A DNA stretch of 6,311 nt from a bacterium. GTDB lineage: Bacteria > UBA6262. The notes below the pieces were generated by a model that worked only from the letters and a program-made list of their open reading frames with translations, did not search any database and was not told the DNA's origin. Position numbers and translations under genes: made by a program. The DNA lies in the NCBI GenBank assembly GCA_028716025.1, contig JAQUQP010000117.1:1-6311 (forward strand). Reading direction: 5' to 3'. Position 1 is the stretch's first letter. Each line of letters begins with the position of its first letter. Below are positions 1 to 6,311 of the stretch, piece by piece.

Positions 1-193
1 AATAAAGATGATAGGCATTTCCCAGGATGATCTCCGCTCCCATCTCTACCACTTCTTCACTGGATAAAGACTTCACTGATGCCTGTGTCCCCACAGGCAT
101 AAAGACCGGGGTCTTGACCACTCCATGAGGCGTCGTCAATTCTCCCAGCCTGGCTTTTGTATTTTTTTCTGTTTTTAACAAACGAAAAGACAT
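1..193 (-). CDS. tgt: Queuine/preQ1 tRNA-guanine transglycosylase, N-terminal part (runs off left edge)
   Basis: Tgt exchanges guanine 34 of GUN-anticodon tRNAs for preQ1 in bacteria, the step before QueA in queuosine synthesis, in the cytoplasm. Only the first 64 codons are present. The visible protein has the family's N-terminal signature: a TPHG motif at residues 21-24, then [16 protein letters not shown] (28-43) and ILGNAYHLY (56-64), as in the start of the TIM barrel. The catalytic Asp residues and the zinc site lie beyond the edge. The ATG at 191-193 is supported by AAGGGG (198-203) four bases upstream; this overlaps the TAA stop of the preceding hydrolase gene, so the two are probably co-transcribed and coupled. 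Codons 1-31 are nearly identical to the start of the M23 peptidase gene at 2233. Since the reading frame continues as ordinary Tgt here, this is taken as the functional copy. Confidence 0.95.
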
Positions 194-204
194 AGTTCCC
201 CTTA
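101..204 (-). repeat. Direct repeat, copy 1: 5' end and RBS of tgt
   Basis: This segment matches 2141-2244 at a constant offset of 2040 bp without gaps. Over 101-193 only five bases differ (104, 108, 176, 178, 183), and 109-175 is identical without interruption. Eleven bases beyond the ATG (194-204), including the Shine-Dalgarno, match at 8 of 11. Similarity stops abruptly on both sides: 91-100 against 2131-2140 is at chance level. Because Tgt continues normally from this copy, it is likely the functional target copy. Confidence 0.95.
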
Positions 205-1431
205 CTCTGTCCATCTTAGTATGGCAAATCGGGTAGCCTGGCCTAGGGAAACAAAACCTTCATAGCTAAACTGGTTTATCCTGGGTTCAGCCGGACCACA
301 GTGAAGGATCAAATCATATTCATCAAGGATGCCATTCGGCTCCCCGGTATCGCTTGAGTCGGCAAATAATATCCCTACGTGGTCCCAACTTTTGTCTGTT
401 TTGTCTGGATTATAATTAAATAATACAACATCCCCTTTACGCACACCGTTCTGCTCTATCTTAATGGTTTCTTGCTCATAAGGCACTCCATCTTCGCCAT
501 TATATTTGGAATAAATAATTCCTTTAGAATCATAGTAATGATCAGGAACAATTAGTTTCATTAATCCGCTATCCACCATTGAATAACGCAGACCGCTTAC
601 GTTAGTGTAGGGGATATTTTTCTTCTTATATTTGTTCCATCCTCCCACTACCAGGTCCGCACAATCGATCCCGGTATAATTATCAACTTGAGCAGGATAA
701 GAGCCAAATACCCCTGGTACATTGAAATACCCAGTTAAAGTTCCCAGATATGAAGTATCATTTTGAATAGTGATTCGAGTGACTTCATTACTTATACCAT
801 TATTAGCATACCTGTTCAGATTCGGGGATTCCAGCTGTTTCTTTCGGCCATCAGCATCCTTATATTCAATGGCGACGCTATAACGCATAGTTCCCAGTCC
901 GTCATGTATATCGTATTCAGAGTCAGTAGGATGGGCATTGGCTGATATTATCCATTTATTATTTTCTGTTATTAATTGATTTTCCCGGTAAGTGATCTTA
1001 TCAACAGATAACGGCTGCCGATCTGTTTTCCCTCCCGGGGCTCCCGCGTTGGTATACCATAAGAACCACGGATTTACCGGATCATTTCCGGGCCCAGTAA
1101 CGTGATACATTTCCGGTTCTATCTTATACCAGTTAATCGTCACTAGCCCTGGATATTCCACTGGTTTTTTAGGAATGATCTCCAGACTGCCAACTTTTAT
1201 TTTTTGCGCCTCACTGAAATAAACAGTCTTATTATCTTCTCTAGCTTTGATCACTAAGTAAAGTAAGCACGAATCTTCTCTCATTATATTCTTAGCGGAA
1301 ATATCAGCTATGACTTTTTCATTTACTCTTGACACAATAAAAACCTTTTCCAGAGTAATGGCAAAAACCAGGCCAGAGTTCAATATAAAACAGATCATCC
1401 ATAGCCATGCCAATATTATTTTACCTGACAT
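202..1431 (-). CDS. Exported NlpC/P60-like (papain-fold) cell-wall hydrolase
   Basis: Predicted secreted cysteine peptidase or amidase of the NlpC/P60-CHAP superfamily, probably acting on peptidoglycan peptides. Residues 1-24 form a signal peptide: K4, hydrophobic core [13 protein letters not shown], and cleavage after VFA. Residues 25 to about 245 are a long, beta-rich region that I do not recognise, possibly a wall- or substrate-binding part. The C-terminal catalytic part shows the expected order: Cys257 in GIDCADLV at a helix start, then KGDVVLF (332-338), then His351 in WDHVGILF, and a third polar residue, probably His377 in LILHCGP. The start overlaps the M23 peptidase stop by 11 nt and has GGAG seven bases upstream, so translation is probably coupled. 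The stop is 8 nt before tgt. The exact family and substrate are inferred; sugar-chain or non-peptidoglycan targets are possible. Confidence 0.8.
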
Positions 1432-2233
1432 TTTTTAACTCCGGATAATATTCATAGGGCTTCAATAAACCATTTTCATATTTTAAAACCATCAAATGCA
1501 CATGGGTCGGACTGGTTTTTTCATAGGCCAGTAACCCAGTCCTCCCTACTGTTCCTATCTCTGTTCCGGCTTTCACAAAATCCCCGGAAGATACCAATAT
1601 TTTATCTAAATGGGCATAGTAAAAAAACATATCCAGCTTTGGATTATACAACCAGATATAGTTTCCACCGCGCAGTTTACTGTTTTTCTGCCACCCGGTG
1701 TATATACTAAGCACTACACTATCAACCATAGCTAAAGCGTCTACCTGTTGCTTTGTTTGGTCATCAAGAGTATTTTGATCTTTATCTCGGATAAAAATAT
1801 CATGCGCCGGATGCCCACCGTGCCGATTGCCGTCAAAAAAATTATATCCTTTAACCGGACTCACCCCATAGACAATACTTGGCTGAAAATCACTGCCCTT
1901 AGGAGCGATACTCGTCAGGCTATAACCTCGCAAGGGGAATATCCAGGTTTGCCCCCCGGTAAAATCATAAGACGCACAAATCTGCCGAAGATCCTTAATA
2001 ATGCCTGGCAAATCGGCTTTAGCCTTGGTTTTATCAATCAATCCATCCCGAACGCTAACCTCATAATTTTCCCAATTGGTTATAGGGGCAGCTTCCAAGG
2101 AAACAACCATAAATCCCATAATTATTAATAAGGAAATAATAAAAACCAGGGTCTTGACCACTCCATGAGGCGTCGTCAATTCTCCCAGCCTGGCTTTTGT
2201 ATTTTTTTCTGTTTTGAGCAAATGAAAAGACAT
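1421..2233 (-). CDS. Exported M23 family metallopeptidase with a Tgt-derived N-terminus
   Basis: Zinc-dependent M23 (LytM/lysostaphin-type) endopeptidase, expected to cut peptidoglycan cross-bridges outside the inner membrane. Metal ligands fit the family: H141 and D145 in HPAHD (H-x3-D), and H246 in the HVH motif (H244, H246). The YAHLD (206-210), G-D-F-V-K-A-G (217-223) and GRTG (230-233) stretches are typical. Residues 1-28 copy the start of Tgt except R4H; P29L follows, then the sequence becomes a hydrophobic core (residues 29-44) ending in SLEA, with likely cleavage near A48. The signal peptide therefore has an unusually long n-region made of Tgt sequence. The ATG at 2231-2233 has AAGGAG four bases upstream, inside the duplicated segment. 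GTG codon 25 (2159-2161) would give a normal-length signal peptide but lacks a convincing RBS. It overlaps the next hydrolase gene by 11 nt, and the pair probably works as one unit. Confidence 0.9.
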   Translation of the reverse strand: MSFHLLKTEKNTKARLGELTTPHGVVKTLVFIISLLIIMGFMVVSLEAAPITNWENYEVSVRDGLIDKTKAKADLPGIIKDLRQICASYDFTGGQTWIFPLRGYSLTSIAPKGSDFQPSIVYGVSPVKGYNFFDGNRHGGHPAHDIFIRDKDQNTLDDQTKQQVDALAMVDSVVLSIYTGWQKNSKLRGGNYIWLYNPKLDMFFYYAHLDKILVSSGDFVKAGTEIGTVGRTGLLAYEKTSPTHVHLMVLKYENGLLKPYEYYPELKNVR

Positions 2234-2244
2234 ACTGCTCCTTA
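2141..2244 (-). repeat. Direct repeat, copy 2: tgt start fused to the M23 gene
   Basis: Second copy of the tgt 5' segment described at 101-204. It carries the same start codon and a similar RBS (AAGGAG instead of AAGGGG), and 31 codons differing in only two of the first 30 residues (R4H, P29L). It then passes in frame into the M23 signal peptide. The sequence upstream of this copy (promoter and 5' hairpin) is not shared with copy 1. Confidence 0.95.
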
Positions 2245-2250
2245 AAAATA

Positions 2251-2272
2251 TAACCCGCTTAAATGCGGGTTA
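2251..2272 (-). other. 5'-terminal mRNA hairpin of the M23 transcript
   Basis: TAACCCGC (2251-2258) and GCGGGTTA (2265-2272) form a perfect 8-bp stem with a 6-nt loop. On the minus strand it is followed by TATTTTTAAGGAG, so it looks like a terminator. However, the promoter at 2277-2305 predicts a start near 2270-2271, which puts the hairpin at the very 5' end of the mRNA, just before the Shine-Dalgarno. A 5' stabilising or translation-modulating hairpin is the likelier role. A terminator for read-through from the CheC-like gene remains possible. Confidence 0.6.
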
Positions 2273-2276
2273 AGAT

Positions 2277-2305
2277 ATTATAAACATAAACTTAGCAAAA
2301 TTCAA
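2277..2305 (-). promoter_or_regulatory. Sigma70-type promoter for the M23 / NlpC-P60 / tgt genes
   Basis: On the minus strand TTGAAT (2300-2305) is followed after exactly 17 bp by TATAAT (2277-2282), a perfect -10 box. The predicted start is near 2270, about 37 nt before the M23 ATG. It is back to back with the plus-strand promoter at 2344-2372. No better promoter is apparent for tgt, so this one probably also serves tgt through the two hydrolase genes. Confidence 0.7.
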
Positions 2306-2372: not shown

Positions 2373-2441
2373 TCAGCTATACAAAATATGTTAAGGGTTC
2401 GGTGACGAAATTGTCATCGGAGGGTTCAGGAGATAGTCGGG

Positions 2442-2476
2442 CCGCTATCTGGATTTATTCCAGGAGCGGTTTTTTT
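2442..2476 (+). terminator. Intrinsic terminator 1 inside the leader
   Basis: CCGCT (2442-2446) pairs with AGCGG (2465-2469), and inner CTGG (2449-2452) with CCAG (2460-2463) around the loop ATTTATT. Seven T residues (2470-2476) follow directly. It is mutually exclusive with the AGATAG/CTATCT helix just upstream. Confidence 0.75.
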
Positions 2477-2480
2477 ATTT

Positions 2481-2515
2481 CCGCTAACTGGAGTTGAGTC
2501 AGTTAGCGGATTTTT
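2481..2515 (+). terminator. Second terminator-like hairpin before the small gene
   Basis: CCGCTAACTG (2481-2490) and CAGTTAGCGG (2500-2509) form a perfect 10-bp stem with a 9-nt loop, followed by ATTTTTATT. Its outer bases CCGCT/AGCGG repeat those of terminator 1. It lies only about 8 nt before the Shine-Dalgarno, so it may also act on translation or mRNA stability. Confidence 0.6.
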
Positions 2516-2536
2516 ATTAATAAAGGAGGATTTGTC

Positions 2537-2632
2537 ATGTCAGAAAAATGGTTTGTAGCAATACTATTGGGGGTGGTTGCCTGGTTTATACTAACGGTTG
2601 CTATAAAAAGTCGTAAAAACCGGGATAAATAG
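2537..2632 (+). CDS. 31-residue single-pass membrane protein
   Basis: A small gene on the plus strand, the only one on that strand. The ATG at 2537 has a near-ideal AGGAGG (2524-2529) seven bases upstream, and the frame closes at TAG 2630-2632. The protein has a short acidic/polar start (SEK), one hydrophobic helix (about residues 5-23, WFVAILL...ILTVAI) with two Trp residues, and a strongly basic tail KSRKNRDK (24-31). The positive-inside rule predicts an outside N-terminus and cytoplasmic tail. Its own promoter and structured leader support its being a real gene. It ends 24 nt before the convergent CheC-like gene's 3' end. I do not recognise a family; regulatory subunit of a membrane complex, leader peptide, or toxin-like peptide are all possible. 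Confidence 0.7.
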   Translation: MSEKWFVAILLGVVAWFILTVAIKSRKNRDK

Positions 2633-5043: not shown

Positions 5044-5080
5044 ATCCCCTCCGCTTACATTTAAATCGGTCTTTTGTGCT

Positions 5081-5302
5081 GGTCAGGGAACTGATCATTA
5101 TTTTGAGCGAGCTTGTCGGTTTTAGCCAAAGCACGCTTGCAGACAACGAGGGTATCTTTTGGTTGCTGGATGCCGAGACATGTTTGAGCCCTGTGGGCGA
5201 GTTGTGAGGCACCGAGTTGTCAAAAGACCTTTGGCGCAGGTCCGCCGAAGGCGGACATGAAAACCGACACTGGAGCGAACAAATAGTGACAGTTCACTGA
5301 CC
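5081..5302. repeat. 222-bp MITE-like element with 43-bp terminal inverted repeats
   Basis: The left end (5081-5123) and the reverse complement of the right end (5260-5302) have the same length and match at 28 of 43 positions without gaps. Both start GGTCAG-x-GAACTG and finish TGTCGGTTTT. Inside, GCCAAAG motifs recur in inverted orientation (5125-5131 and 5229-5235), and a perfect hairpin GTCCGCC-GAA-GGCGGAC lies at 5240-5256. No transposase or credible reading frame is present. The right end lies one base past the queA stop (5304). It could be a non-autonomous mobile element, a dispersed repeat, or a long stem-loop that protects or ends the queA mRNA. It fills the gap between queA and the flavoprotein gene; I see no clear target-site duplication. 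Confidence 0.6.
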
Positions 5303-5303
5303 G

Positions 5304-6311
5304 TCACTTGATGAACATCGCGTCGCCGTAGGAGAAGAAGCGGTATTTCTCAGTTATGGCTGTCATATAAGTGTTCCTGATAGCTTCCATTCCGGCAAAC
5401 GCAGAGATCAGCATTAAAAGTGTAGATTTTGGCAAATGAAAATTAGTGATCAAGTGATTCACTATCTTAAATTCGTATCCCGGATAAATAAAAATGTCCG
5501 TACCTTTACATTCAGCTTTCAGTCTCCAACCATCGGCAGTCTGCTCCGTAGCGCTTTCCAGAGCGCGAACTACTGTGGTCCCCACGGATACTATATTTTT
5601 TCCTGCTTTAAGCGCGCTATTTATTTCCCTGGCCGAATCCTCGGATATTTCGTAAAACTCAGTTTCCATTTTGTGCCGGGTGATCTCTTCTTCCCTTACC
5701 GGCATAAAGGTCCCCATGCCGACATACAGGGTAATGGGAACGACTTTGATCCCTTTAGCCTTGATAGTTTCCAGCAGCACCGGGGTAAAATGCAAACCTG
5801 CAGTCGGTGCTGCTACAGCTCCTTCTTTTTGGGCATAAATTGTTTGATACCTGTCTTTGTCTTCTTCTTCTGCCAGGCGTTTGATATATGGCGGGAGAGG
5901 CATTTTTCCTATCCTGGCCAGAACTTTTTCAAAATCCGGTGCATTGAAAGACAGGATCACCTTACCTTCCGGTCCTTTTTCCTTGATCTCTGCCTCCAAG
6001 TTTTCATCATTAAAATATACTTTATCTTTTAATTTGAACTTTTTCGCGTCTGTGATCAAGGCTTCCCAAAGACGGGTATTGGCGCCTATCTTCCGGAGGA
6101 GTAAAATTTCTACTTTGCCGCCGGTTTTTTTATGCGCGAACAAACGCGCGGGAATAACTTTGGCATTATTAATAACCAAAATATCACCTGCAGTCAGGTA
6201 ATTAGGGAGACAATTAAAACCAGAATGTTCTAATTGGCCGGTCTTCCTATTTAACACCAGTAATCTTGATTGGTCTCGTTCTTTGGCAGGAGTCTGGGCG
6301 ATGAGTTCCGG
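5304..6311 (-). CDS. queA: S-adenosylmethionine:tRNA ribosyltransferase-isomerase (N-terminus cut by right edge)
   Basis: QueA moves the ribosyl group of S-adenosylmethionine to preQ1 in tRNA and rearranges it to epoxyqueuosine, following Tgt. The frame stays open to the window edge: the first visible residues PELIAQTPAKERDQSRLLVL match the family just after its first ten or so residues, so the GTG at 6255-6257 is internal, not the start. Visible residues (about 335) include GKMPLPPYI (135-143), GAVAAPTAGLHF (164-175), SVGTTVVRALES, the FIYPGYEFK and NHLITNFHLPKSTLLMLISAF stretch, and the C-terminal YRFFSYGDAMFI. All are conserved, and the length is normal, so the enzyme is probably active. 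The usual neighbour tgt is about 5.1 kb away. Confidence 0.97.
   Translation of the reverse strand, partial: PELIAQTPAKERDQSRLLVLNRKTGQLEHSGFNCLPNYLTAGDILVINNAKVIPARLFAHKKTGGKVEILLLRKIGANTRLWEALITDAKKFKLKDKVYFNDENLEAEIKEKGPEGKVILSFNAPDFEKVLARIGKMPLPPYIKRLAEEEDKDRYQTIYAQKEGAVAAPTAGLHFTPVLLETIKAKGIKVVPITLYVGMGTFMPVREEEITRHKMETEFYEISEDSAREINSALKAGKNIVSVGTTVVRALESATEQTADGWRLKAECKGTDIFIYPGYEFKIVNHLITNFHLPKSTLLMLISAFAGMEAIRNTYMTAITEKYRFFSYGDAMFIK

Follow-up and report, generated by a model that had tools for sequence, protein, structure and literature searches.

The window, as we call the whole 6,311-nt stretch of DNA that was analysed, comes from an uncultured bacterium. It carries on its minus strand queA, an FMN reductase gene, a gene for a PAS/LuxR regulator, one that matched no Pfam profile, the M23 peptidase gene, an NlpC/P60-like gene and the start of tgt, in this order (Table 1). 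The M23 gene matched the Pfam profile Peptidase_M23 with 44.3 bits (cut-off 28.7). The 64 tgt codons inside the window matched the TGT profile with 71 bits (cut-off 26.3), and tgt presumably continues whole beyond the window. Its ATG lies 8 nt past the NlpC stop, and the M23, NlpC and tgt genes would be expressed as one operon.

Table 1. Features of the M23-NlpC-tgt region, with positions in the window
Feature	Position	Strand	Basis
tgt, open over 64 codons, then cut by the window end	1..193	-	ORF and Pfam
Downstream repeat copy (tgt's own RBS, start and first codons)	99..204	-	direct-repeat search and alignment
Joint 2: NlpC stop TAA (202-204) abuts the tgt RBS directly	194..204	-	read from alignments
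NlpC/P60-like gene, partner of M23; overlaps the M23 gene end by 11 nt	202..1431	-	Pfam, 18.6 bits, below cut-off 23
Fusion gene encoding Tgt residues 1-31 (2141-2233), then the hydrophobic core of a signal peptide and an M23 peptidase domain	1421..2233	-	ORF, Pfam, alignment, structure model
Joint 1: word TTTAT common to tgt (codons 31-32) and the unfused G001 M23 gene (TTTTATTATT)	2139..2143	-	read from alignments
Upstream repeat copy (RBS plus codons 1-31 of tgt, start codon included, which now form the M23 gene start)	2139..2244	-	98/106 identical to 99-204
5' hairpin TAACCCGC/GCGGGTTA of the tgt leader	2251..2272	-	hairpin/terminator scan
Sigma-70-type promoter match TTGAAT-17-TATAAT, at the site of the relatives' tgt promoter	2277..2305	-	promoter scan
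nhaA-I RNA, divergent from the captured leader	2395..2450	+	covariance model, 48.8 bits, cut-off 37
Hydrophobic small ORF, 31 residues, behind the nhaA-I RNA	2537..2632	+	read from sequence

The promoter scan returned 4 promoter-like sites in the window against 2.5 expected in shuffles. As this is not above the control, the promoter match is by itself no evidence; the call takes its weight from the position and the leader, which match those in relatives (see below). The leader hairpin at 2251..2272 scored as terminator-like, and attenuation could be possible there. A further terminator-like hairpin was seen at 2480-2510, between the nhaA-I RNA and the 31-residue ORF (window 2395-2632, plus strand). 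The paper on the nhaA-I class gives nhaA genes as common targets and mentions hypothetical genes for variants (PMC9646797). The non-coding region from queA to the FMN reductase gene (5050-5310) contains short repeat-like words, as judged by eye.

Eleven direct-repeat families were found in the window, ten of them of 16-24 nt each. The only large one pairs 99-204 with 2139-2244, two copies of 106 nt that are 92% identical at a spacing of 2040. The alignment is gap-free, with 98 of 106 bases identical; it begins 11 nt 5' of the ATG, at the RBS, and ends inside codon 32. The longest exact run, counted on the alignment, is 67 bases and covers codons 7-28 and one further base (coding bases 19-85); 5 of the 93 coding bases differ. 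Tgt and the M23 protein have residues 1-31 in common except for R4H and P29L, after which the M23 protein turns directly, in frame, into a hydrophobic core. We thus confirmed that the repeat and the in-frame Tgt-M23 fusion are real. The gap-free match described in the initial annotation, with its offset of 2040, its 67 identical bases and its extension through the RBS, was reproduced, though the upstream copy reaches 2139, two bases beyond the 2141 given there. Likewise, the single change reported for the first 28 residues was found, but the shared part comprises 31 residues and two changes. At joint 1 the word TTTAT is present both in tgt (CTTTATG) and in the unfused M23 gene (CTTTTATTATT); at joint 2 the NlpC stop TAA meets the TAAGG of the tgt RBS. 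The bases shared at the two joints number only 5 and 3, which is within chance. Such short words fit illegitimate recombination, though they could also have arisen by chance.

We found 370 homologues of the M23 protein, of which 120 were listed and checked by motif for the Tgt part. It was present in four of the 120: the window's own protein (P0001) and P0002, P0003 and P0004, three metagenomic proteins from other contigs with the same Tgt-M23 junction. Past the junction these are 79.1, 77.4 and 77.7% identical to the window M23, respectively. In all four fused proteins F31 is the last Tgt residue (in P0004, shorter by one residue, it is F30), and IIS and a similar core (FIISL) come next. The initial annotation had called for M23 homologues without the Tgt part, and three were found with short signal peptides of their own, P0005 (from the related genome G001), P0006 and P0008. 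Residues F31-I32-I33 of the fusion align with F9-I10-I11 of P0005. The sequence of P0007 starts too late to show the presence or absence of the Tgt part. A scan of IMG/VR with the M23 protein gave no match.

These homologues bear on whether the fusion could be an assembly chimera, with the tgt 5' end mistakenly attached to the M23 gene. The window is a contig of 6311 bases, and assemblers are prone to fail at repeats. However, an assembly error is unlikely because the same fusion with the same joint recurs in three further metagenomic M23 proteins, which lie on other contigs and are 77-79% identical past the junction. The two copies in the window are not one stretch copied twice, since they differ at 8 of 106 bases. 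We therefore regard a chimera as extremely improbable.

In a tree of 31 M23 bodies, P0001, P0002 and P0004 grouped together (87/82) and P0003 fell near P0007 without a resolved position. The fusion label required two changes on this tree, and the four fused proteins formed one group in 1% of 200 bootstraps (with P0007 scored as unfused); no starred branch forces more than one change. The shared joint suggests that the fusion originated once, which the M23 tree neither shows nor excludes. NlpC homologues were found on contigs equal in size to those of P0002, P0003, P0005, P0006 and P0009; for three close NlpC homologues (P0242, P0246 and P0248) there was no M23 on an equally sized contig among the listed matches. 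When the fused proteins P0002-P0004 were compared with the 14 closest tgt proteins, none was on an equally sized contig. One tgt protein, P0124, starts with MSFHLL exactly as the window M23 does, which is suggestive of an exchange between tgt and M23 copies.

The translation start of the fused gene was examined through the predicted RBS energies. Codon 1 had the strongest RBS (-7.1 kcal/mol), similar to that of tgt itself (-7.0). The internal starts gave -4.8 (TTG19), -4.3 (TTG46), -3.3 (ATG42), +0.2 (GTG25) and +3.2 kcal/mol (ATG39). In principle all or most of the Tgt-derived codons might be an inherited untranslated leader, with translation starting inside: from codon 25 the protein resembles one with a normal short signal peptide, and the RBS at TTG19 is fair, with weaker values at TTG46 and ATG42. 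Against this, GTG25 and ATG39 have no RBS, codon 1 exceeds every internal start, and the open frame and the residues are conserved across the four fused proteins. An internal start is thus improbable. The initial annotation had named two outcomes that would speak against the fusion, an unsupported junction, or homologues with an unrelated N-terminus together with a downstream start; neither was found, as P0002-P0004 share the joint and codon 1 has the strongest RBS.

By hydropathy alone, the fused M23 shows the charged n-region and hydrophobic core of a Sec signal peptide, with an n-region of net +3, a peak at residues 30-44 and a best 15-residue mean of 3.09. In the four fused proteins the n-regions predicted in this way are 24-31 residues long with net charges of +3 to +4; those of the unfused P0005, P0006 and P0008 comprise 3-8 residues with net +1 to +2. 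In an AlphaFold model of the fused protein pLDDT was below 50 at residues 1-21, 23-26 and 42-46, a helix was predicted at 28-41, and the ten-residue mean pLDDT was 75-98 from residue 51 onwards. Given the low pLDDT, the helix at 28-41 and the long charged n-region, the Tgt part most likely serves passively as an n-region and is removed together with the predicted signal peptide. M23 enzymes bind their metal through H-x(3)-D and H-x-H residues. In the fused protein, which is over the profile cut-off, these are present as H141, D145, H244 and H246, and they are invariant in 28 aligned M23 homologues. The closest solved sequences are TagE, LytM and lysostaphin (E 7e-6 to 9e-4). The fused protein is putatively an exported M23 peptidase, which by its family would cut the cell wall. 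Among M23 proteins of the LytM/lysostaphin type, the fused members differ by their Tgt-derived n-region from P0005, P0006 and P0008 with a short one.

Five genomes of the group (G001-G005) were searched with the 106-base tgt segment. It matched tgt itself in four of the five and one decayed tgt copy in G002, and no other gene; G005 gave no match. A close M23 was found in G001 only (about 76%); the best M23 matches in G002, G003 and G004 were 54, 53 and 40% identical, and the search of G005 returned none. The state before rearrangement is therefore represented by one genome and by the unfused homologues. In G001 an M23 gene with its own start and signal peptide overlaps NlpC and is followed, after 375 bases, by tgt; the distance from the NlpC stop to the tgt ATG is thus 375 nt in G001 vs 8 nt in the window. 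The NlpC-like partner, sought in the fetched loci of the relatives, is in G001 71% identical to that of the window. The 375-base gap contains, on the opposite strand, an nhaA-I RNA (30.7 bits, below the cut-off) and a 20-residue ORF, and then a promoter-like pair, the hairpin AACCTGC/GCAGGTT and the tgt RBS. In the window the nhaA-I RNA, the 31-residue ORF, the TTGAAT-17-TATAAT pair, the hairpin AACCCGC/GCGGGTT and the RBS all lie 5' of the fused M23 gene and not of tgt. The window leader aligns with that of G001 over one stretch of 50 bases (98% identical) and another of 45 (89%), and one C-G to T-A pair exchange separates its hairpin from those of G001, G002 and G003. Read from the sequences, the corresponding promoter site in G001-G003 has TTGCCT-17-TATAAT or TAAAAT. 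Promoter and hairpin likewise lie 5' of tgt in G002 and G003, with a 271-base insertion between the hairpin and the tgt start in G003. A promoter/hairpin leader was not found at the G004 tgt.

Because the leader stands before tgt in G001 and before M23 in the window, the peptidase gene now has the promoter, hairpin, RBS, start and 31 codons of tgt. Compared with the unrearranged G001, G002 and G003 (the last with the insertion in between), the acceptor M23 gene stands behind the donor leader. The initial annotation had proposed a 5' capture, and the position of the leader, before tgt in G001 where M23 has its own signal peptide and before the fused M23 in the window, bears this out. The comparison supports a capture in which the M23 gene took the leader, RBS and start of tgt, whose own start is now third in a close M23-NlpC-tgt row.

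Taken together, we consider it very probable that the M23-NlpC pair was placed inside the start of tgt, that M23 was joined in frame to the tgt 5' end, and that the two copies have been kept alike since. A rearrangement would have set the gene pair inside the start of tgt, and the M23 gene would have been left without its own start and without the beginning of its signal peptide. It would have been joined in frame, at tgt codon 31/32, to the tgt sequence from the promoter through the 5' hairpin, RBS and start to codon 31. A second tgt 5' end, beginning 11 nt 5' of the ATG, would have been placed right after the NlpC stop, so that tgt kept a start as third gene. The 31 Tgt residues would act as a long positive n-region ahead of M23's own core, presumably being removed with the signal peptide, and the two 5' copies would since have been kept alike, most likely by gene conversion of the RecA type. 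The joining may have proceeded by tandem duplication of M23-NlpC-leader-tgt5' with subsequent loss of the first gene pair and the second leader. A double template switch would leave the same final anatomy as the duplication and two deletions.

The likeness of the two copies was assessed by counting codons that differ among those coding for the same residue. Between the repeat copies 2 of 28 such codons differ; between the window and G001 the counts are 68/177 for M23 and 121/277 for NlpC. The probability of 2 or fewer differences in 27 codons at a rate of 0.38 is 3e-4 (27 was used where 28 codons were counted). NG86 dS values were 1.34 for M23 and 1.75 for NlpC (window vs G001) and 0.095 for the repeat copies; a second estimator gave 1.14 for M23. 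Within tgt codons 1-31, synonymous differences from the window were found at 9/26 codons in G001, 7/28 in G002 and 9/28 in G003, indicating that this segment is free to change; the contrast of the repeat copies with the G002 tgt alone is weak (P 0.021). For the conserved synonymous positions the initial annotation had offered recent duplication, gene conversion or DNA-level constraint. Strong constraint on the first tgt codons is disfavoured by these synonymous changes in relatives. Of the other two, conversion is favoured over recency, as the shared junction suggests one old fusion, although the M23 tree does not confirm this. Identity of the M23 body is 77-79% to P0002-P0004 vs 76.5% to G001. 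A fusion shared with P0002-P0004 would therefore be nearly as old as the split from G001. A single origin would thus mean that the copies have become homogenised in the meantime, probably by gene conversion. If instead the fusion in the window were separate and young, gene conversion would not be needed. A recent duplication independent of P0002-P0004 would agree with the M23-body tree, which shows no single origin, with the 1% of bootstraps that unite the four fused proteins and with the low count of 5/93 coding differences between the copies. The four joints, however, follow the same Tgt residue and lead into IIS and a similar core, and we judge independent origin to be rather unlikely.

Further observations concern the tgt start in relatives. 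The 271-base insert of G003 (G003:C18 7840-8110, locus L003) has matching inverted ends; sequences 68-82% identical to it occur at four further sites in G003 and at three in G002. Since it recurs and has inverted ends, it appears to be a dispersed element that struck the same tgt boundary as the M23-NlpC pair. The decayed tgt copy of G002 (G002:C10 1350-1560, locus L033) has lost its start codon and part of its sequence, retains 149 bases that are 97% identical to the intact tgt of G002, and stands directly behind a gene that we take to be glycosyltransferase-like. A related gene in G003 is followed by a leader and an open tgt. In a queA tree the window grouped with G001 and G004 (95/91); proxies of the window tgt (P0122-P0125) grouped with G003 and G002 (80/83, 83/89). 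Recombination of tgt between lineages is a possible reading of this conflict, with the window tgt known over 64 residues.

Some integrative elements restore the 5' end of their target gene. As with these, a direct repeat of a gene end flanks the inserted genes here and the target keeps its start; unlike them, there is no recombinase among the proteins scanned and the copied end starts a cargo protein. The M23-NlpC pair might accordingly be viewed as a mobile cassette for which the tgt 5' end is the attachment site and which restores tgt on insertion. The repeat around the two-gene module, the retained tgt start, the separate hit of the same boundary by the dispersed repeat in G003 and the decayed tgt copy behind another gene in G002 are in line with this. 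On the other hand, Pfam scans of seven window proteins revealed no recombinase, no inverted pair of at least 16 nt joins the module ends, and G001 has a single copy of the tgt 5' segment, with the same gene pair lying upstream of the leader. A cassette is very unlikely. It is also conceivable, though we doubt it, that the repeat pair is a maintained device and not a scar: recombination would drop M23-NlpC as a 2040-bp circle or amplify the module, and conversion would keep the ends matched. Loss of the circle would leave leader and tgt restored without trace.

Most of what is known of promoter capture by duplication comes from selection experiments. Capture by tandem duplication has been described for the Salmonella his genes (Anderson and Roth 1978) and for Cit+ in the E. 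coli long-term experiment (Blount 2012), as cited in PMC11111574; the literature search on this subject also returned PMC4718724. The his and Cit+ cases resemble ours in that a rearrangement joins a coding part to the promoter of a neighbour, the donor keeps a copy (in our case presumably a whole one) and the joint has short or no homology. They differ in that the present case is natural, with the same joint in several relatives, and is in frame with the donor start and 31 codons in a putatively exported protein. Furthermore, no full tandem copy is left in the window and the copied 5' ends are still alike. Gene conversion between repeated genes is known to keep copies alike. In such systems, as here, synonymous divergence of the copies is far below that between host lineages; unlike usual gene conversion, the tract here would be a 5' end common to two genes that are otherwise unrelated, one of a cytosolic and the other of a putatively exported protein. 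Our full-text literature search found no paper on queuine tRNA-ribosyltransferase with M23 and fusion, and among papers on partial duplication, in-frame fusion, gene conversion and chimeric genes, titles and opening lines of abstracts described nothing alike. Promoter capture is known, and the present case is a natural variant of it, made in frame.

Comparison of natural relatives reveals the state after capture and a likely state before it, in detail that extends to the leader hairpin and the joint. In the course of this event, a captured coding part would have become the n-region of a putatively exported enzyme, and the housekeeping RNA-modification gene tgt now stands behind two cell-wall-type genes in one row, an arrangement that may be of benefit to the host. 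If the repeat pair were a maintained device, the tgt start would serve this bacterial group as a site where cargo genes land repeatedly and can leave again, and conversion would lock the n-region of an exported enzyme to the N-terminus of a tRNA enzyme of the cytosol. The locus also makes it possible to test in nature for how long gene conversion keeps repeated 5' ends coupled when the genes behind them are unrelated.
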